From an uncultured Kiloniellaceae bacterium (GTDB lineage Bacteria > Pseudomonadota > Alphaproteobacteria > Kiloniellales > Kiloniellaceae), in the NCBI GenBank assembly GCA_947493695.1, contig CANLSF010000001.1:372001-436000 (forward strand): a stretch of DNA of 64,000 nucleotides. The letters are read 5' to 3'. Shown here piece by piece: positions 40,024 to 49,389 of the stretch. Made by a program: the position numbers and the translations under genes. The number at the start of each line of letters is the position of its first letter. Within the stretch, counting starts at the first letter, position 1. The notes below the pieces were generated by a model, which had not been told where the DNA came from, ran no database searches, and saw only the letters and a list, made by a program, of their open reading frames with translations.

Positions 40024-41022
40024 ATGCGTAATCTCATGAGCTTCCGCTCGACCCTCGCCGCCCTCACTCTGATCGCGCTGCTGATCTCCTGGACCAATGC
40101 CGGTTACTTCGGCATGGAGATCCTGGCGGAGATCGCGATTCTCGCCCTGCTGGCCATGAGCCTCGACCTGCTTGCCGGCTATACCGGCCTGGTCAGCCTG
40201 GGACACGCCGCGCTATTCGGCTGTGGCGCCTACGCCTTTGCGGTCTTTACCGCATTTTGGGGCTGGCCACCTTCATTATCCATGCTGGCGGCCACACTCC
40301 TGACGGGCTTGATCGCCTTGATCGTCGGATCGGTGGTCACGCGCGTGCAGGGGATCTTCTTCATCATGATCACCCTGGCCATTGGCGAGATGGGTTATGA
40401 ACTGGTCTTCAAGACCCGCGCGCTTGGTGGTGACGACGGACTGGCGGGCATTCCCCGGCTGGACCTTTCCGCCATCGGCGTCGATCTGAATGATCCTGGC
40501 GTCTTTGCCCTGGCCCTGATCCTGCTGGTCGCGGTCTGCTATCTGCTGCTGAAACGTCTGCTGGCTTCGCCCTACGGCGCGATCCTGGTCGGCCTGCACG
40601 ATAACGCCGGACGCATGCGCGCGCTCGGTTTGCCGGTGCAACGCTACCAGACCAGCATCTTTGCCTTCTCAGGTGCGATTGCGGGCTTTGCCGGAACGCT
40701 CAGCGCCCAGCACACCATGTTCATCTCACCTCAACTTCTGCATTGGACCACCTCTGGCGAAGTGCTGGTCATGGGTATCCTCGGCGGGTTGGGAACCCTG
40801 GTCGGACCGGTGATCGGTGCTGCCCTGATCACGCTGCTACGTCATGAATTGAGCGATCTGACAGACTACTGGGGTCTCTGGCTCGGTGTCTTCCTCATCA
40901 TCGCTGTCATGGGCGGCAAGAACGGCGTTGTCGGCTGGTTGGAAGCAGGCTGGAATGCACTCACACGCCGTGGAGAAACGTCGAAACAAAGCGACCGGAG
41001 CAAAAACGATGCTGCGGGCTGA
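40024..41022 (+). CDS. livM: Branched-chain amino acid-type ABC transporter permease (LivM)
   Basis: 332 residues with about ten hydrophobic segments and LivM landmarks SLDLLAGYTGLVSLGHAALFG, FFIMITLAIGEMGYEL and GGLGTLVGPVIGAAL. The last 14 bases overlap the start of livG. It belongs to the probable aromatic-acid importer. Confidence 0.9.
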   Translation: MRNLMSFRSTLAALTLIALLISWTNAGYFGMEILAEIAILALLAMSLDLLAGYTGLVSLGHAALFGCGAYAFAVFTAFWGWPPSLSMLAATLLTGLIALIVGSVVTRVQGIFFIMITLAIGEMGYELVFKTRALGGDDGLAGIPRLDLSAIGVDLNDPGVFALALILLVAVCYLLLKRLLASPYGAILVGLHDNAGRMRALGLPVQRYQTSIFAFSGAIAGFAGTLSAQHTMFISPQLLHWTTSGEVLVMGILGGLGTLVGPVIGAALITLLRHELSDLTDYWGLWLGVFLIIAVMGGKNGVVGWLEAGWNALTRRGETSKQSDRSKNDAAG

Positions 41023-41749
41023 AACCCTCTTCAAAACCTTCGGCGCCCTTCAAGTGACCAAGGGTGTGTCCCTGGAGATTCCAGCCGGTATCCGGCACGC
41101 CATTATCGGTCCGAACGGCGCGGGTAAAACAACACTGTTCAATCTTCTTGCAGGTGAACTGGCACCTGACGAAGGCCGTATTCTGATCGACGGCCAGGAC
41201 GTCACCGCCTTCGCACCGGATCGCCGGGCGCGACGCGGCCTGTCGCGCAGCTTCCAGAAGAACAATCTCTTCCTGAGTGGCACGGTCCGCGACAACCTGG
41301 TGGTCGCCGACATCGTCGCGCGGGGATACGGCGCGCACTTCTGGACGCGTCTGTCAGACAATCGGCGCGCCCATGAAAAGACAGCGGAGATTGCGGAACA
41401 GGTTGGTCTTGCAGATCTGCTCGATCGCGGCGTATCGGAACTCTCCTACGGCGCACAGCGCCAACTCGAAGTCGGCCTCGCATTGATGCCCGACCCGAAG
41501 GTATTGCTGCTGGATGAACCCACATCGGGCATGAGCCCTGAGGAAACCGGACGCATGTTGCAGCTCATCGACGATCTGCCGCGCACCTTGGCGGTTCTGC
41601 TGATCGAGCACGATATGGATCTGGTCTTTTCCCATGCGGACCGCATCACGGTGTTGAACTACGGCGAAATTCTGATGGAAGGCACCCCACAGGAAGTGCG
41701 CGGCTCCGACATTGTTCAGGAAACCTATCTCGGCGGAAAGGCGCACTAA
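41009..41749 (+). CDS. livG: Branched-chain amino acid-type ABC transporter ATP-binding protein (LivG)
   Basis: 246 residues from the ATG at 41009, which lies inside the end of livM; longer starts overlap livM further and are rejected. Walker A GPNGAGKTT is at 34-42, the signature is the LivG-like LSYGAQRQ, and Walker B is VLLLDEPTSG. Its TAA is the end of a CTAA that flanks the 263-bp palindromic element. Without that element the livF ATG would stand one base after this stop. Confidence 0.92.
   Translation: MLRAETLFKTFGALQVTKGVSLEIPAGIRHAIIGPNGAGKTTLFNLLAGELAPDEGRILIDGQDVTAFAPDRRARRGLSRSFQKNNLFLSGTVRDNLVVADIVARGYGAHFWTRLSDNRRAHEKTAEIAEQVGLADLLDRGVSELSYGAQRQLEVGLALMPDPKVLLLDEPTSGMSPEETGRMLQLIDDLPRTLAVLLIEHDMDLVFSHADRITVLNYGEILMEGTPQEVRGSDIVQETYLGGKAH
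41746..41749. repeat. Left CTAA target-site duplication
   Basis: CTAA here and at 42013-42016 flank the palindromic element exactly at its inverted-repeat ends. The left copy includes the livG stop codon. Confidence 0.7.
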
Positions 41750-42012
41750 GGCCTGTTAAGTATCAGGATATTGACGTGGTTGGTCTCAGATGACGCGAGA
41801 TTAGGAGCGAGGACGCAGGACATGCAGAGCATATTCAAGAACGAGCGACGCGGGCTCGCGTCACCTGAGACCAATCCCTTCGGGACGGACCGTATTTTCC
41901 CAGCGGCGGCGTCCCAGGCGTCTTATGTGGGACCTGCCACATGGCGCCACCTGCTCCTGACCGCTGGGAAAATACGGTGCCGCCACGAAAACATCCTGAT
42001 ACTCAACAGGCC
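41750..42012. mobile_element. Non-coding palindromic insertion element (MITE-like) between livG and livF
   Basis: The 263-bp element begins GGCCTGTTAAGTATCAGGAT and ends with the inverted copy: 30-bp terminal repeats at 41750-41779 and 41983-42012, 26 of 30 identical. A perfect CTAA occurs on both sides (41746-41749 and 42013-42016), as expected for a 4-bp target duplication. Two further inverted pairs lie inside. One is TTGGTCTCAG.TGACGCGAG at 41780-41799 and 41855-41874, 19 of 20. The other is ACCGTATTTTCCCAGCGG at 41889-41906 and 41961-41978, 18 of 18. No transposase is encoded. Excision would leave TAA-A-ATG, restoring a compact livG-livF junction with GGAAAGG as livF ribosome site. The family is not one I can name. 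Confidence 0.8.
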
Positions 42013-42016
42013 CTAA
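42013..42016. repeat. Right CTAA target-site duplication
   Basis: Second copy of the CTAA duplication, ending one base before the livF ATG at 42018. Confidence 0.7.
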
Positions 42017-42017
42017 A

Positions 42018-42710
42018 ATGCTGAACGTCGAGAACATCCACAGCTATTACGGCGCAAGCCACATCCTGCACGGCGTGTCCCTGGAGGTGGCCAAGGGTGA
42101 GGTTGTCTCCCTGCTCGGACGCAACGGCGCGGGCAAGACAACGACGCTACGCTCGATCATCGGACTGACACCTCCGAAGCAAGGGACAATCCATCTCAAG
42201 GGCGAAGAAACCACCGGGCGCAAGCCCCATTCAATGGCCCGGATGGGCGTGTCCTACATGCCGGAAACACGCGGTATTTTCCCGTCCCTTTCCGTCTACG
42301 AAAATCTGACTCTGGCAGCGGGACGACGGCCCGGTCCCTGGACCGTGGAGCGGGTTTTCGAGATCTTTCCGCGCCTGGAGGCCCGGCGACTGAACGGCGG
42401 CGCACAGCTCTCGGGCGGCGAGCAACAGATGCTGGCCATCGCGCGATCACTGCTTCTGAACCCGGAACTGCTGCTGCTCGATGAACCAACCGAGGGTCTG
42501 GCCCCGATCATCGTGCAGGACATCGAAGACCGCCTCGAAGCCATCAAGCGCGAAGGCATGACGATTCTGCTGGTCGAGCAGAACTTCCGTTTCGCGACCA
42601 ATCTGGCGGACCGGGTTTATGTGCTCGGCAAGGGTGCGATCCAATGGTCGGGATCCACAGAAGAAATACTGGCGGACGAAAGCACACAAAAAACCTGGTT
42701 GGGTGTCTGA
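42018..42710 (+). CDS. livF: Branched-chain amino acid-type ABC transporter ATP-binding protein (LivF)
   Basis: 230 residues with Walker A GRNGAGKTT (34-42), signature LSGGEQQ and Walker B LLLLDEPTEG. The ATG lies five bases after the right end of the inserted element, so its original ribosome site in the livG 3' end has been moved 267 bases away. An AGG at the element terminus (seven bases before the ATG) may act as a weak replacement. The protein itself looks intact. Confidence 0.92.
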   Translation: MLNVENIHSYYGASHILHGVSLEVAKGEVVSLLGRNGAGKTTTLRSIIGLTPPKQGTIHLKGEETTGRKPHSMARMGVSYMPETRGIFPSLSVYENLTLAAGRRPGPWTVERVFEIFPRLEARRLNGGAQLSGGEQQMLAIARSLLLNPELLLLDEPTEGLAPIIVQDIEDRLEAIKREGMTILLVEQNFRFATNLADRVYVLGKGAIQWSGSTEEILADESTQKTWLGV

Positions 42711-43230: not shown

Positions 43231-44766
43231 ATGGAATATCCAAGAAACTACAATGCTGCTTCAGATTTTATCGACCGGAATATCGCAAAAGGCCTGAGCG
43301 ACAAGACGGCCTTCATCGACCCGGAGCGCAGCCTGACCTACGGCGAACTGCAAAGCGAAAGCAGTCGTGCAGCGAACCTTTTGAGCGCGCACGGCATCGG
43401 ACGCGAAGAACGCGTCGCGATGCTGGTTCATGACACCGTTGATTTCCCGGTCATCTTCTGGGGTGCGATCAAGGCGGGCGTGATTCCCGTGGCTTTGAAC
43501 ACTCTGCTGTCCACCGATCAGTATCACTATATTCTGGAGGACTCCCGCGCCAAGGTGCTGTTCGTGTCTGCGCCTCTTCTGGAAACACTGACTCCTGCCC
43601 TGGCAAAACTTCCACAGTTGAAACATGTCTTTGTCGTGGGTGGAGAAAGCGGACCGCACATCGACTTTGCGGCAAGCCTCGCACAGGAATCCGACAGCTT
43701 CGAAACCCTGGAGACCTGTGCTGACGAGACGGCCTTCTGGCTTTATTCGTCAGGCTCGACAGGCATGCCCAAGGGCGTTCCCCACATCCATACCAGCCTG
43801 ATGGAAACCGCCAGACTTTACGGTCAGGACGTGCTTGGCATTCAGGAAAACGATGTTGTCTATTCCGCCGCGAAGCTCTTCTTTGCTTACGGGTTGGGCA
43901 ACGGCATGTCATTTCCCATGTCGGTCGGCGCGACAACAATCCTCTTTCCCGGGCGCCCGACACCGGACGCTGTGCTGGGACTCCTGAAGGAACATCAACC
44001 CACGATCTACTGCGGGGTGCCAACACTCTACGCCGCGTTGCTTGCCCATCCGGACTGCAGTCGCGACAAGGCTTCTGCCCGTTTGCGCATCTGCCTGTCG
44101 GCGGGCGAAGCCCTGCCGGAAGACGTTGGAAAATCCTGGCGCAAGATTATGGATGTCGACATCCTGGACGGGGTGGGCTCAACCGAGATGCTGCACATCT
44201 TCCTCTCCAATCGCCCCGGCGACATCGTCTACGGCACCTCGGGCGTTGCTGTCCCGGGCTATGACCTGCGTCTGGTCGACGATCAGGGGCAGGACATAGC
44301 AGACGACGACGTGGGCGAACTCCTGGTACGGGGCAGCTCAGCGGCGAGCGGCTACTGGAATCAGCGCGAAAAAACCCGGCGCACCTTCGAGGGCGAATGG
44401 ACCCGGACCGGCGACAAGTACACTCGCGACGGCGAGGGCCGTTATCACTACTGCGGACGGACGGACGATATGTTCAAGGTCAGCGGCATCTGGGTTTCTC
44501 CGTTCGAGGTTGAGTCCGCCCTGATCTCACATGAAAGCGTCCTGGAAGCCGCCGTGGTGCCTTTCGAGGATCCGGATGGCCTGACCAAACCCAAAGCCTT
44601 TGTGATCCTGCAGGAAACGGCCACGCCGGAAGGCATGTTCGACGTGCTGAAAGATCATGTGCAGACCAGCATCGGAAAATGGAAGTATCCTCGCGACATC
44701 GTCTTCGTGGAATCGCTTCCGAAAACCGCCACCGGAAAAATCCAACGCTTCAAGCTCAGGGATTGA
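43231..44766 (+). CDS. Benzoate-CoA ligase family protein
   Basis: 511 residues. The adenylation P-loop YSSGSTGMPKG is at 172-182, the hinge and A8 region reads GRTDDMFKVSGIWVSPFEVE, and the catalytic lysine is Lys503 in TGKIQR. The size and motifs match BadA/BclA-type ligases that make benzoyl-CoA from benzoate, ATP and CoA. Benzoyl-CoA is the substrate of BoxAB encoded downstream. A hydroxy- or amino-benzoate preference cannot be excluded. Confidence 0.88.
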   Translation: MEYPRNYNAASDFIDRNIAKGLSDKTAFIDPERSLTYGELQSESSRAANLLSAHGIGREERVAMLVHDTVDFPVIFWGAIKAGVIPVALNTLLSTDQYHYILEDSRAKVLFVSAPLLETLTPALAKLPQLKHVFVVGGESGPHIDFAASLAQESDSFETLETCADETAFWLYSSGSTGMPKGVPHIHTSLMETARLYGQDVLGIQENDVVYSAAKLFFAYGLGNGMSFPMSVGATTILFPGRPTPDAVLGLLKEHQPTIYCGVPTLYAALLAHPDCSRDKASARLRICLSAGEALPEDVGKSWRKIMDVDILDGVGSTEMLHIFLSNRPGDIVYGTSGVAVPGYDLRLVDDQGQDIADDDVGELLVRGSSAASGYWNQREKTRRTFEGEWTRTGDKYTRDGEGRYHYCGRTDDMFKVSGIWVSPFEVESALISHESVLEAAVVPFEDPDGLTKPKAFVILQETATPEGMFDVLKDHVQTSIGKWKYPRDIVFVESLPKTATGKIQRFKLRD

Positions 44767-44772
44767 TCCAAC

Positions 44773-45591
44773 ATGCCCCTCGAGGATAACGGAAATCTGA
44801 CCATAGACGGCGCCAATCTAGAGTATCGGATGATCGGGCCGCGCCCGAACGAGGCGCCCTCGATCATCCTGCTTCACGAAGGCCTGGGTTGCGCCGCCTT
44901 GTGGCGCGACTTCCCTGAACAGCTGGCAAAGTCGACGGGCCTCGGCGTCTTTGTCTATTCCCGGCAGGGCTATGGGGGCTCCTCCCCCTGCGAAGTGCCG
45001 CGCCCTCTGACCTACATGCACCACGAAGCAATCGACGTCCTGCCCGATCTGCTGGATACCATCGGCTTTCAGAGCGGCGTGCTGGTCGGACATTCGGACG
45101 GCGCGTCAATAGCGGCAATTCACGGTGGCGACATAGCCGATCCGCGCGTGAAGGGCCTGGTTCTGATGGCGCCGCATTTCTTTACCGAGGACGAGGGCAT
45201 CGCCTCAATCGCGGAAACCAAAACGACATTCGAGACCACCGATTTGCGGGAGCGCCTGAAAAAGTATCACGGCGAAAACGTGGACTGCGCATTCTGGGGT
45301 TGGAACGGTGCCTGGCTCGACCCGGAATTCCGCAACTGGGATCTACGCGAGTACCTGCCGCAGATTTCCGTTCCCGTGATCGCCCTGCAGGGACTGGACG
45401 ATCAGTATGGAACCGCCGCGCAGGTCGCCTGTATCGAAGAACTCTGCGGTGGCGAGTTCGAGAGTCTCTTTCTATCGGAGTGTGCTCACACGCCCTTTCG
45501 CGAACAGCCGGAACAGACTCTGGCGGCCACGAGCCGCTTCATCGCAAGCCTGTTTGAATCCGGCACCGCAGTCGGCAATCGGAATCGGTGA
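44773..45591 (+). CDS. Alpha/beta-fold hydrolase of the box region
   Basis: 272 residues. Nucleophile Ser108 lies in GHSDGAS, the oxyanion region in LHEGLGCAALW, and the catalytic histidine in ECAHTPF near residue 243. It follows the ligase gene by six bases. It may hydrolyse an aromatic ester to benzoate or a lactone or CoA ester of the pathway; box clusters often carry such a gene. Confidence 0.83.
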   Translation: MPLEDNGNLTIDGANLEYRMIGPRPNEAPSIILLHEGLGCAALWRDFPEQLAKSTGLGVFVYSRQGYGGSSPCEVPRPLTYMHHEAIDVLPDLLDTIGFQSGVLVGHSDGASIAAIHGGDIADPRVKGLVLMAPHFFTEDEGIASIAETKTTFETTDLRERLKKYHGENVDCAFWGWNGAWLDPEFRNWDLREYLPQISVPVIALQGLDDQYGTAAQVACIEELCGGEFESLFLSECAHTPFREQPEQTLAATSRFIASLFESGTAVGNRNR

Positions 45592-45592
45592 G

Positions 45593-46090
45593 ATGATACC
45601 CACGGCTTCATCCGGACTTACGCCGACATCTACAACTACACCCGCCGTGCCGCGAGAGGATGTTGTGTTGCCTGCGCATCCACATCGTCCCGGAAGTGGA
45701 AGCGTTGCGGAGACGGCATTGCTGACCGAAGTGAAAGCGACCTGCCCCCAAGTCACCGATCCGGACAGCTGGCGGAAGAACAGGCCCTATCGCTATGGCT
45801 GGTCTTTGTTCGAGGCCGGTTTCTATTGGGAAGCGCATGAGGTCTGGGAGCCGGTCTGGCTGTCCTGTCGCCCGAACAGTCTGGAAAAAATGTTTTTAAA
45901 AGCAGCCATTCAGATGACCAACGCCTGTTTGAAGCAGGTCATGGACAACAGGAAAGCAGCCCGGCGACTGTTTGACCACGTCGATGAGCTCATAGGCGAG
46001 TTAAAAACCGGCCTTCAAGCTGAAGACGAAACTTACATGGGTGCGGACCTGATGATTTTTGCCAGAGTAAAAATGCATTATAATTCTTAA
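45593..46090 (+). CDS. DUF309 domain protein
   Basis: 165 residues from the ATG at 45593, two bases after the hydrolase stop. The longer frame lies inside the hydrolase gene and is rejected. The C-terminal 110 residues carry the DUF309 pattern GFYWEAHEVWEPVWL and a helical bundle with NACLKQV. The first about 45 residues are Thr/Pro-rich and probably disordered. Function unknown. The 3' end contains the first half of the BoxR-type operator before boxC. Confidence 0.75.
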   Translation: MIPTASSGLTPTSTTTPAVPREDVVLPAHPHRPGSGSVAETALLTEVKATCPQVTDPDSWRKNRPYRYGWSLFEAGFYWEAHEVWEPVWLSCRPNSLEKMFLKAAIQMTNACLKQVMDNRKAARRLFDHVDELIGELKTGLQAEDETYMGADLMIFARVKMHYNS

Positions 46091-46132
46091 TTATAGATTA
46101 TTAAGTCATATTATGCATTTTATCGCTTGACC
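46070..46132 (+). promoter_or_regulatory. BoxR/BzdR-type TGCA sites and promoter before boxC
   Basis: AAAATGCATTATA (46070-46082) is identical to the sequence at 37641-37653. A second TGCA in an inverted ATATTATGCATTTT lies at 46114-46117, exactly 40 bases after the first TGCA at 46074. TTGACC (46127-46132) with TAGACT (46149-46154) gives a plausible promoter. Neither TGCA has a perfect partner at six bases, so the sites are degenerate relative to TGCA-N6-TGCA. Confidence 0.55.
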
Positions 46133-46240
46133 GATACTTCGACCGAACTAGACTTCTAACCAAGAGCTCACCAGAGCCAACTCGATACCGGCTTCCCGCT
46201 GCAATGGCGGCCAAACCGGATAAAGGGATGAAAAAGAGAG

Positions 46241-47890
46241 ATGATCGATTTTCAAACGGACCCCTCGCGGTACCGGCACTGGCGCATTGAAACAGATGGC
46301 GCGGTCGCAAACCTGATTATGGACGTCGACGAAAAGGGCGGACTCTTCGAAGGCTATGAGCTGAAGCTCAATTCATACGACCTGAGCGTCGACATAGAGC
46401 TCGCCGACGCCATCCAGCGTCTGCGGTTTGAGCATCCCGAAGTCAAAGCCGTCGTCCTGCGCTCGGGTAAGGACCGGGTTTTCTGCGCCGGCGCGAACAT
46501 CCGGATGCTCGCGGGCGCGGCGCACTCACACAAAGTGAACTTCTGCAAGTTCACCAACGAGACCCGGAATTCGATGGAGGATGCGAGCCATCATTCAGGG
46601 CAGCAGTATATCAGCGCAGTCAACGGTGCTTGCGCCGGTGGCGGTTACGAACTGGCACTTTCCACCGAATACATCATTCTGACCGACGACGGTTCTTCTT
46701 CCGTCGCCCTGCCGGAAGTTCCCTTGCTTGCGGTTCTGCCCGGCACCGGCGGACTGACCCGGGTGACCGACAAGCGCAAAGTCCGCCGTGATCTGGCCGA
46801 TGTCTTTTGCTCCATCGAAGAAGGCATCAAAGGCAAGAAGGCCGTCGACTGGCGTCTGGTCGACGAGATTGTGCCGAATTCCCGCTTTGAAGAGAGCGTT
46901 GCGACCAAGACTCAGGAACTTGTGAAATCATCAGATCGTCCGGATGGCGAGAGCGGGATCAAGCTCGGTCCCCTGACACGCAGCTTTTCGCAAAACGCCG
47001 TGACCTATTCGACCGTTGAGGTTGAGTTGGATCGAGAGAAGCAGCTTGCGACCGTAACCGTCAAAGGCCCTGAAGACACACCGCCACCTTCGGCCGAGGA
47101 GATGTCTGCCCAGGGCGATTCCTTCTGGCCGCTGCGGGCCGCGCGCGAACTCGACGATGCCATCCTTCACCTGCGTTTGAACGAGATGGAACTGGGCGTC
47201 ATTCAGTTCAAAACCCACGGTGACAGCGGCAAGGTCATTGCTTACGACGACTTCCTGGAGTCGCAGAGCAAACACTGGCTGGCAAAGGAAATACTTCTTT
47301 ACTGGCGGCGGGTTCTGAAGCGGGTCGACATGACATCCCGCTCGCTGGTGGCGCTGATCGAACCGGGAAGCTGCTTCGCGGGCACCCTGGCTGAACTGGT
47401 CTGGGCGTCCGATCGCTCCTACATGGCGGTCGGCGCTTTTGAGGGCGACAATCGTCCCGAAGCCGCCCTTGTGCTCTCGGCCGCCAACTTCGGACGTCAT
47501 CCCATGTCCAATGGCTTGAGCCGCCTGGAAACCCGCTTCCTCGGCGAACCGGAAAACGTGGCAAAAATCGAAACCCGCAAAGGCGAGTCACTGACTGGCG
47601 AAGAAGCCGATGCACTGGGCCTCGTGACCTTCGCCTACGACGACATCGATTGGGAAGACGAAGTCCGCATCTTCCTGGAGGAGCGTGCGAGTTTCTCGCC
47701 CGACGCCATGACCGGCATGGAGGCCAACCTGCGCTTTGCCGGGCCGGAGACCATGGAGACACGGATCTTCGGACGTCTGACCGCATGGCAGAACTGGATC
47801 TTCCAGCGTCCTAATGCGGTTGGAGAAGACGGTGCGCTGCGCCGCTACGGATCCGGCCAAAAGGCCGATTACAACATGGAACGGGTCTGA
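46241..47890 (+). CDS. boxC: 2,3-epoxybenzoyl-CoA dihydrolase (BoxC)
   Basis: 549 residues, the usual length of BoxC. Crotonase-superfamily N-terminal half: KAVVLRSGKDRVFCAGANIRML and ISAVNGACAGGGYELAL oxyanion segment; the C-terminal half forms a second crotonase-like domain. It opens the epoxide ring of 2,3-epoxybenzoyl-CoA hydrolytically, releasing formate and 3,4-dehydroadipyl-CoA semialdehyde. The first gene of boxC-boxB-boxA. Confidence 0.96.
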   Translation: MIDFQTDPSRYRHWRIETDGAVANLIMDVDEKGGLFEGYELKLNSYDLSVDIELADAIQRLRFEHPEVKAVVLRSGKDRVFCAGANIRMLAGAAHSHKVNFCKFTNETRNSMEDASHHSGQQYISAVNGACAGGGYELALSTEYIILTDDGSSSVALPEVPLLAVLPGTGGLTRVTDKRKVRRDLADVFCSIEEGIKGKKAVDWRLVDEIVPNSRFEESVATKTQELVKSSDRPDGESGIKLGPLTRSFSQNAVTYSTVEVELDREKQLATVTVKGPEDTPPPSAEEMSAQGDSFWPLRAARELDDAILHLRLNEMELGVIQFKTHGDSGKVIAYDDFLESQSKHWLAKEILLYWRRVLKRVDMTSRSLVALIEPGSCFAGTLAELVWASDRSYMAVGAFEGDNRPEAALVLSAANFGRHPMSNGLSRLETRFLGEPENVAKIETRKGESLTGEEADALGLVTFAYDDIDWEDEVRIFLEERASFSPDAMTGMEANLRFAGPETMETRIFGRLTAWQNWIFQRPNAVGEDGALRRYGSGQKADYNMERV

Positions 47891-47940
47891 GAACCCGAGG
47901 GCACGACTGCTCGCCAGCGACCGATGCAAAGGAACGAACA

Positions 47941-49389
47941 ATGATCGATGCAATGACCGTCAACTACGACACCATGATCCCGAACAATGTCGGCCTGTCG
48001 GAAGATCGCCGCGTGCTGAAGGCGCTGGAGCGCTGGCACCCGGGCTACATCGACTGGTGGAAGAGCATGGGTCCGGACGGATTCCAGGACGCCATGGTCT
48101 ACCTGCGCACTGCGGTTGGCGTCGACCCCAAGGGCTGGGCGAAATTCGATTACGTGAAGATGCCCGAGTATCGCTGGGGCATCCTGCTCGCGCCTCAGGA
48201 AGAAGGCCGCACCATTCCCTTCGGCGAGCATTACGGCGAACCGGCATGGCAGGAAATCCCCGGCGAGTACCGCGCCATGATGCGTCGCCTTGTCGTCATT
48301 CAGGGAGACACCGAACCCGCATCGGTCGAGCAGCAGCGCCATCTGGGGCGCACTGCGCCTTCGCTCTATGACATGCGAAATCTCTTTCAAGTCAATGTCG
48401 AGGAAGGTCGGCACTTCTGGGCCATGGTCTATCTGCTTCAGAAGTACTTCGGCAGCGACGGACGCGAAGAGGCAAACGAGCTTCTAAGACGCCGGTCCGG
48501 CGACAGCGATGCCCCACGCATGCTGGGGGCCTTCAATGAGGAAACCTCCGACTGGCTTTCTTTCTTCATGTTCACATTCTTTACGGATCGGGACGGCAAG
48601 ATGCAGCTCGAAAGCCTGGCGCAATCCGGCTTTGATCCACTTTCCCGTACCTGCCGTTTCATGCTGACCGAAGAAGCTCATCACATGTTTGTTGGCGAGT
48701 CGGGCATTGGTCGTGTGATCCAGCGCACATGTGAAGCAATGAAGGCTGCCGGGATCGAAGACCCCAACGACATTGCCAAAGTCCGGGCCCTGGGTGTCAT
48801 CGACCTGCCGACCTTGCAGAAGAAAGCAAACCTGCATTACTCGCTGTCGCTGGATCTCTTTGGGTCAGAAGTTTCCACCAATGCGGCCAATGCCTTCAAC
48901 GCGGGTGTCAAGGGACGCTACCACGAGACCAAGATCGACGACGATCATCGCCTGCTCAATGATACCTATCCGGTGCTGAAGCATGTGGACGGCGAATTCA
49001 AGCTGGTCGATGAGCCTGCCCTCGCCGCCCTGAACATGCGTCTGCGGGACGACTACGTGACGGACTGCGCAAAGGGCATCAAGCGCTGGAACAAGATCAT
49101 CGAGAAGGCCGGCGTCGACTTCGCCCTGGCCCTGCCGCACGCTGCCTTCCACCGGCAGATCGGTGAGTTCGCCAACATCTCAGTGACACCCTCCGGTATC
49201 ATCCTGTCGGAAAGCGAATGGAACGCGTCGAGAGGAGAGTGGTTGCCGTCCGGCGACGATGGCGACTTCGTTCAGTCGCTGATGGTGCCCGCCACCGGCG
49301 CAGGTGAGTACGCAGGTTGGATCGCACCGCCCAAGATGGGGATCGACAATCAGCCCGGCGATTTCGAGTACGTTCAGATCGCCGCATGA
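47941..49389 (+). CDS. boxB: Benzoyl-CoA 2,3-epoxidase oxygenase subunit (BoxB)
   Basis: 482-residue di-iron oxygenase. The expected ligands are visible with the spacing known for BoxB: Glu125, Glu155 and His158 (EEGRH), Asp216, Glu245 and His248 (EEAHH). It epoxidises benzoyl-CoA at C2-C3 with O2 and electrons from BoxA. The stop overlaps the boxA start as ATGA. Confidence 0.97.

Follow-up and report, generated by a model that had tools for sequence, protein, structure and literature searches.

The junction between livG and livF in an uncultured Kiloniellaceae bacterium is interrupted by what is, with near certainty, one full inserted copy of a dispersed, transposase-less MITE-like element. 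Within this copy lies a 64-codon open reading frame (ORF) with a Shine-Dalgarno sequence, a point missed by the preliminary description of the junction. The combined orientation and frame data of the element family are best accounted for by a 'ribosome relay' that would soften insertion into operons, a reading drawn from sequence comparison to which we assign a probability of roughly 0.55.

An inserted element between livG and livF

The element occupies positions 41749..42013 (265 bp) of the window, the whole 64,000-nucleotide stretch that was analysed. Its loop-A strand is the + strand, in the same sense as the upstream livG-type ABC ATPase gene (40886..41749, +; the listed GTG possibly lies upstream of the true start) and the intact downstream livF-type ABC ATPase gene (42018..42710, +). 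The insertion point is the livG stop codon (TAA, 41747-41749), which is preserved, and livF starts at 42018. With the flanks joined, GGAAAGG is followed after nine bases by ATG, as the preliminary description had it. Its statement that livF has been parted from its ribosome site also stands, but the element itself supplies a Shine-Dalgarno sequence, an ATG and a frame ending one base before livF. The livG–livF pair belongs to a branched-chain-type ABC transporter and adjoins genes for benzoate-CoA ligase, boxC and boxB; these lie downstream of the transporter at window positions 43231-49389, so that livG–livF may serve benzoate uptake.

An inverted-repeat search of the element found again the three inverted pairs reported earlier. 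The outer arms (41747-41779 / 41983-42015; 33 nt, 85%) define the 5' and 3' terminal inverted repeats, or outer stem, at 41749..41779 (+) and 41983..42013 (+). Hairpin A (41773..41881, +) has arms at 41773-41799 / 41855-41881 (27 nt, 85%) enclosing loop A (41800..41854, +), and hairpin B (41889..41978, +) has arms at 41889-41906 / 41961-41978 (18 nt, 100%). A mini-hairpin around CCCTTCGGGA lies between hairpins A and B (41877..41891, +, ends approximate). Loop B of the window copy bears a weak likeness to inverted loop A (z 0.8), the corresponding values being 1.6-4.2 in 7 other copies tried. No ORF of at least 100 aa lies wholly within the element, in agreement with the reported absence of a transposase, and a search for consensus promoters and terminators returned none. 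The + strand of the element folds at -148.4 kcal/mol (z -11.9; 0/200 shuffles as good), which bears out the strong structure ascribed to it.

Comparison with related genomes supported the earlier proposal that a MITE-like element had inserted here. In 3 congeners, livG is followed directly by livF without the element (livF orthologues 90-92% identical), and two further copies (L005 and L056) have matching empty sites in congeners, the occupied site having exactly 2 bp extra. BLAST detected element matches in 22/98 relatives searched, own genome included. The pattern named in the preliminary description as the mark of a resident RNA, a sequence kept at this junction in all relatives with no copies elsewhere, was thus not found.

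Spread of the element family

The genome of the organism contains one full copy, that of the window, together with a half copy on contig C8 and an apparent remnant on C3 made of two joined ends (L184, about 1460-1525). Palindromes of 62-66 bp consisting of two joined terminal repeats without interior were also observed at L172 and L163 (G040), and the stretch on C3 is probably a remnant of this kind. A 138-bp derivative with a single hairpin, in which nearly perfect 51-nt arms surround loop A, was present at L016. In genome G007, an IS110-type transposase gene (PF01548, PF02371) lies inside an element copy at the edge of loop A (L008:277-1714); elements of the IS110 type are known to insert into repeated palindromes.

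Related copies are scattered over Kiloniellaceae, other Rhodospirillales and some Rhizobiales. The exact loop pattern occurs in at least 80 stretches in genome contigs, with hosts that include, among the matches listed, Denitrobaculum tricleocarpae, Pelagibius MAGs, Roseospira marina, Oleispirillum naphthae, Rhizobiaceae MAGs and Mesorhizobium sp. Root157. The family is patchy, because the strict loop pattern was found in 3/385 genomes of an even draw from the class, a lower bound since this pattern misses the window's own copy. A blastn search of the plasmid collection gave no match to the element. The same insertion is common to genomes G003 and G002 in two cases (L026 and L007; L054 and L059), and some insertions are therefore older than the split of these species.

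Target duplication, ends and a candidate mobilising transposase

CTAA is present on both sides of the element (41746-41749 and 42013-42016), as the preliminary description had noted, but the duplication is TA within YTAR and not CTAA. The left TA (41747..41748) is at the same time the beginning of the livG stop codon TAA, and the right TA lies at 42014..42015. Among 81 elements, the flanks combine freely (29 CTA..TAG, 8 TTA..TAG, 6 TTA..TAA and 6 CTA..TAA), which excludes a 4-bp duplication for most copies and points to duplication of TA inside YTAR; a few copies duplicate TAA. From 164 core matches, 46 without recognisable ends were left out of this count, and the others omitted were repeats of one copy. 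Free flank combination, together with the two empty sites differing by exactly 2 bp, led us to reject a 4-bp CTAA duplication. The window junction itself cannot decide the length of the duplication, because its flanks, once joined, fall one base short of those in the two nearest congeners. The element described as 263 bp (bases 41750-42012) is real, but is best read as about 41749-42013, that is 265 bp. Terminal repeats, TA duplication, lack of an internal transposase, dispersed copies and empty sites are all features of a MITE, and all were observed.

The element ends read GGGYCTGTTGA. An IS5-family transposase (NF033580, above cut-off) lies between similar ends at L197 in G026 and at L192 in G003, and an IS5-family transposase gene in G002 (L201) lies between ends of weaker similarity. 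At its right end, L197 carries CTAGGGCCTGTGGACATTC, which agrees in all of 19 nt with an end of an element copy in G026. IS5-family insertion sequences and their MITE derivatives share with the present element the ends CTAGGG(C/T)C.GT and the YTAR context seen at L192 and L197, whereas the present element has no transposase and an unrelated interior. Matching ends and TA/YTAR targets suggest that the element is likely moved in trans by IS5-family transposases, of a group which we take to be IS427, with a TA target. Transposases between similar ends, for which a search had been proposed as a check, occur in relatives, but no IS5-family element with matching ends was found in the own genome (2 PF01609 matches, of which the one examined, L193, had no matching ends).

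The insertions often fall on stop codons: 33/67 copies lie on the stop of a flanking gene, compared with 87/545 other YTAR sites. At CTAG targets there was no excess (elements 7/22, control 42/156), and at other YTAR targets 14/21 elements lay on a stop codon compared with 45/389 control sites. Stop-codon targeting was accordingly kept only in part, as an excess at non-CTAG YTAR targets. These counts bear on a neutral explanation of the whole family, in which a MITE hops into YTAR with the aid of IS5-family transposases, stop codons are often hit since such insertions are tolerated, the insert exerts no effect itself, and the internal ORF arises incidentally from a GC-rich palindrome of fixed length. 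The CTAG figures agree with this explanation and the non-CTAG figures stand against it; on all the evidence, including that given below, we consider it rather unlikely.

A reading frame completed by the target duplication

The ATG at 41822-41824 in loop A opens a frame of 64 codons ending at TAA 42014-42016, after which a single base precedes the livF ATG at 42018. This proposed relay ORF (41822..42016, +), whose stop comes from the right target duplication, is preceded by the Shine-Dalgarno-like AGGAGCGAGGACGCAGGAC (41803..41821, +); loop A offers AGGAG/AGGAC motifs and then the ATG. The frame was followed in 84 distinct insertions, 83 of them with the loop-A ATG and 76 with both flanks long enough. 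The first stop falls exactly at the right duplication in 50/83 insertions of this enlarged set (38/67 full copies in an earlier count), which means that the frame takes its stop from the target duplication itself. For the mirror strand, read from the loop-B start codon, only 9/68 frames end in this way and the three frames are evenly used (24, 17 and 27), an absence that the neutral explanation does not predict.

The anti-Shine-Dalgarno energy 5' of the internal ATG averaged -8.8 kcal/mol (n = 84) compared with -3.6 for 504 flank ATGs, 7% of which had an energy as strong as that of the internal ATG. Folding predictions for nine copies left the Shine-Dalgarno region 0.56-0.66 unpaired. The internal ATG was predicted to lie within a stem of 4 bp (0.03-0.09 unpaired), which counts against the relay, as does the fact that conservation of the ATG stems partly from the collection of copies by way of loop A.

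The encoded peptide showed no sign of constraint. The pN/pS ratio was 1.0 in the relay frame (22 pairs), without the purifying selection expected of a small gene, and for the remaining two frames it was 0.89 and 0.88. The 64-aa frame had no match in Pfam at E up to 1. A conserved peptide was therefore rejected, and of this idea only an open frame was retained. A tblastn search of the plasmid collection with one 64-aa peptide also found nothing. New stops in the relay frame numbered 2 compared with 4.9 expected, which was not significant (56/500 simulations as low), and avoidance was similar in two other frames. Among 66 insertions, the frame was open in 43 (+0), 38 (+2) and 38 (-1). The ORF measures 192 nt in 54/83 insertions, by common descent; it differs from 192 nt in 29, of which 7/29 are in frame and 9 of the others come from one clade. 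These observations weigh against the relay: there is no selection at the peptide level, the avoidance of new stops is not significant, frames +2 and -1 are about as open, and changes in length show no preference for multiples of three. The neutral explanation draws its support from the same pN/pS of 1.0, the shared descent of the 192-nt length, the near-equal openness of other frames and the low share of in-frame length changes.

At L037, L274, L275 and L276 (G040, G028), a 27-nt in-frame tandem duplication follows about codon 14 of the relay frame, and it is doubled at L276. The G002/G003 copies (L005, L007, L053-L056, L058 and L060) form one clade in which the loss of a single base has abolished the frame, and this clade is the one least often found before near starts.

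Orientation relative to downstream gene starts

We compared the distance to the nearest gene start on the right side with that on the left side (mirrored) in the 76 copies with both flanks, with gene starts called on both sides by the same simple rule of length and GC3. Gene starts within 30 nt were found on the right in 36 copies and on the left in 7 (P = 1e-5), and within 20 nt in 29 and 5, respectively. These numbers include one left-side start of the window copy, probably a spurious antisense frame; without the window copy they were 35 v 6 (30 nt) and 28 v 4 (20 nt). Altogether, 18 assemblies contribute near starts. Additionally, genes ending exactly at the junction were more frequent on the left (25) than on the right (11) among 67 copies (P = 0.03), a count from which L062, L112, L108 and L016 were dropped. 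L062 and L112 were kept in the frame, orientation and pN/pS counts. In 15 later-fetched insertions, the orientation bias was repeated, with 6 v 0 within 20 nt (14 with both flanks; P = 0.03).

The bias is concentrated in copies with an intact frame: within 20 nt, intact copies had 23 right v 2 left starts and broken copies 6 v 3. The frame was intact in 18/19 copies with a downstream start within 10 nt and in 30/62 otherwise (P = 0.0003), and the association held without the G002/G003 clade (P = 0.002). It was found post hoc, with the thresholds of 10, 20 and 30 nt chosen after the data had been seen. Among the later-fetched insertions, a start within 20 nt was present in 5/10 intact and 1/4 broken copies (P = 0.58, few copies), and this weakens the link on which the relay leans. 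Age is a rival cause, as broken copies may simply be older: mismatches in the terminal inverted repeats, of 30 positions, were 3.0 in intact copies near a start and 3.85 in broken copies far from one. The neutral explanation predicts neither the orientation bias toward near downstream starts (36 v 7) nor its concentration in intact-frame copies.

Conservation, covariation and the question of an RNA function

The family alignment comprised 33 non-redundant copies and 281 columns. Mean column identity was highest in loop A (0.90), followed by loop B (0.74), the terminal repeats (0.69-0.70) and the arms (0.62-0.69). As copies were gathered with the loop-A pattern, the conservation of loop A and its ATG is partly by construction; an earlier BLAST search made without that pattern had query bases 56-108 (loop A) as the sole part matched in many relatives. 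The ends can differ between subfamilies, and loop A stays.

RNAalifold predicted 89 pairs, 73 of which had at least one double-sided change. Such a figure would favour a structured or regulatory RNA resident in the operon, but this explanation retains hardly any probability: as a resident feature it is refuted by the empty sites, with the junction of 3 congeners lacking the element, copies being dispersed and no Rfam family recognised. In palindromic DNA, moreover, one arm copied onto the other can keep the pairing without any RNA. The Rfam search of the window gave two sub-threshold matches in all, the best being mir-9223 (24.1 bits against a gathering score of 53), and the search of 8 loci found no family at gathering score.

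Because a selected RNA strand should carry more G-U than A-C mismatches, we examined the strand asymmetry of mismatches. In 36 clusters, G-U and A-C mismatches numbered 23 v 16 in hairpin A (P = 0.34) and 16 v 29 in the outer stem, and 13 v 7 in hairpin B on the other strand. A smaller set, from which L062 and L112 (doubtful ends) had been dropped, gave 20 G-U v 6 A-C in hairpin A, and inferred changes in that hairpin numbered 24 v 5, including one pair chosen for its wobble. The bias was thus not robust in the larger set and was rejected as evidence for a folded RNA as the function of the element. Without a robust bias or an Rfam family at gathering score, the earlier suggestion of such a function found no support. 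In mobile palindromes, strong covariation of hairpins does not by itself indicate a functional RNA.

The same counts bear on an RNase III or mRNA-processing role like that of Correia (NEMIS) elements, in which co-transcribed stems of ~30 bp would be cut between livG and livF, setting their relative mRNA levels. Stems of 27-33 nt and the fold z of -11.9 would suit such a role, and RNase III binding or cleavage is described for Correia elements in the parts of the literature consulted (PMC2649163, PMC10969869). However, neither strand had a robust excess of G-U over A-C (23 v 16 for hairpin A and 16 v 29 for the outer stem), and the frame is left unexplained; we therefore consider this role improbable.

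Comparison with known elements

The RIME and ABC repeats of Rhizobium are probably similar in kind to the present element. Correia elements (Correia/NEMIS/CREE of Neisseria) are described, in the portion of the source consulted, as small elements without transposase that have inverted ends and a TA target, lie in transcripts and form strong hairpins (PMC2649163). They share these features, as well as the size class and a putative role in mRNA, with the present element, which differs in its length of about 265 bp, its two internal hairpins and its internal Shine-Dalgarno sequence and ORF. Its ends are probably different from those of Correia elements, and an IHF or promoter role is not indicated for it.

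Chunjie of Geobacter uraniireducens is a 235-bp MITE in an operon, by title 'without disturbing the operon structure' (PMC10969869). It belongs to another lineage, and no relay ORF appears in the part of its description consulted; the words 'ribosom' and 'stop codon' are absent from the main text of PMC10969869. According to excerpts, enterobacterial RU elements are small mobile repeats with open reading frames (PMC2759123), and Rickettsia palindromic elements form in-frame fusions to genes (PMC10969869). As far as these excerpts go, both share with the present element the character of small mobile repeats with open frames, but there the frame is continuous with that of a host gene, whereas the present element opens an ORF of its own, closes it ahead of the next gene and leaves its peptide unconstrained. 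REP/REPIN sequences, as partly described, are likewise dispersed palindromes near genes, but measure 20-40 bp and carry a GTAG or CGTC tag (PMC3733652), in contrast to the 265 bp, terminal repeats and TA duplication found here. The titles and opening abstract lines of the papers retrieved in searches of mostly open-access literature contained no description of the present element family or of a translational relay, and no paper joining 'translational coupling' with 'miniature inverted-repeat'.

Discussion

Insertions in operons are usually polar. Under the ribosome relay, the element would be built for tolerance between the genes of an operon. Loop A would offer a Shine-Dalgarno sequence and an ATG to ribosomes, which would read 64 codons across the structured insert and terminate at the TAA or TAG made by the right-hand duplication, beside the downstream start codon. 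The terminated ribosomes could then reinitiate at the downstream gene, and translating ribosomes would also keep the mRNA covered, which may lessen Rho polarity. In the window copy, ribosomes would be handed to livF, whose old ribosome site remained at the end of livG.

More broadly, there is an even chance that a MITE family found across Alphaproteobacteria carries a translational coupler, in which a ribosome-binding site and start codon, the most conserved part of the element, are combined with a TAR stop from the target duplication and ribosomes are passed on to the next gene, while selection on the host operon maintains orientation and frame. If true, the parasite repairs the operon junction that it interrupts. 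This would be a simple route, open to testing, by which a parasite could persist within operons, and the element would represent a ready-made natural translational coupler.
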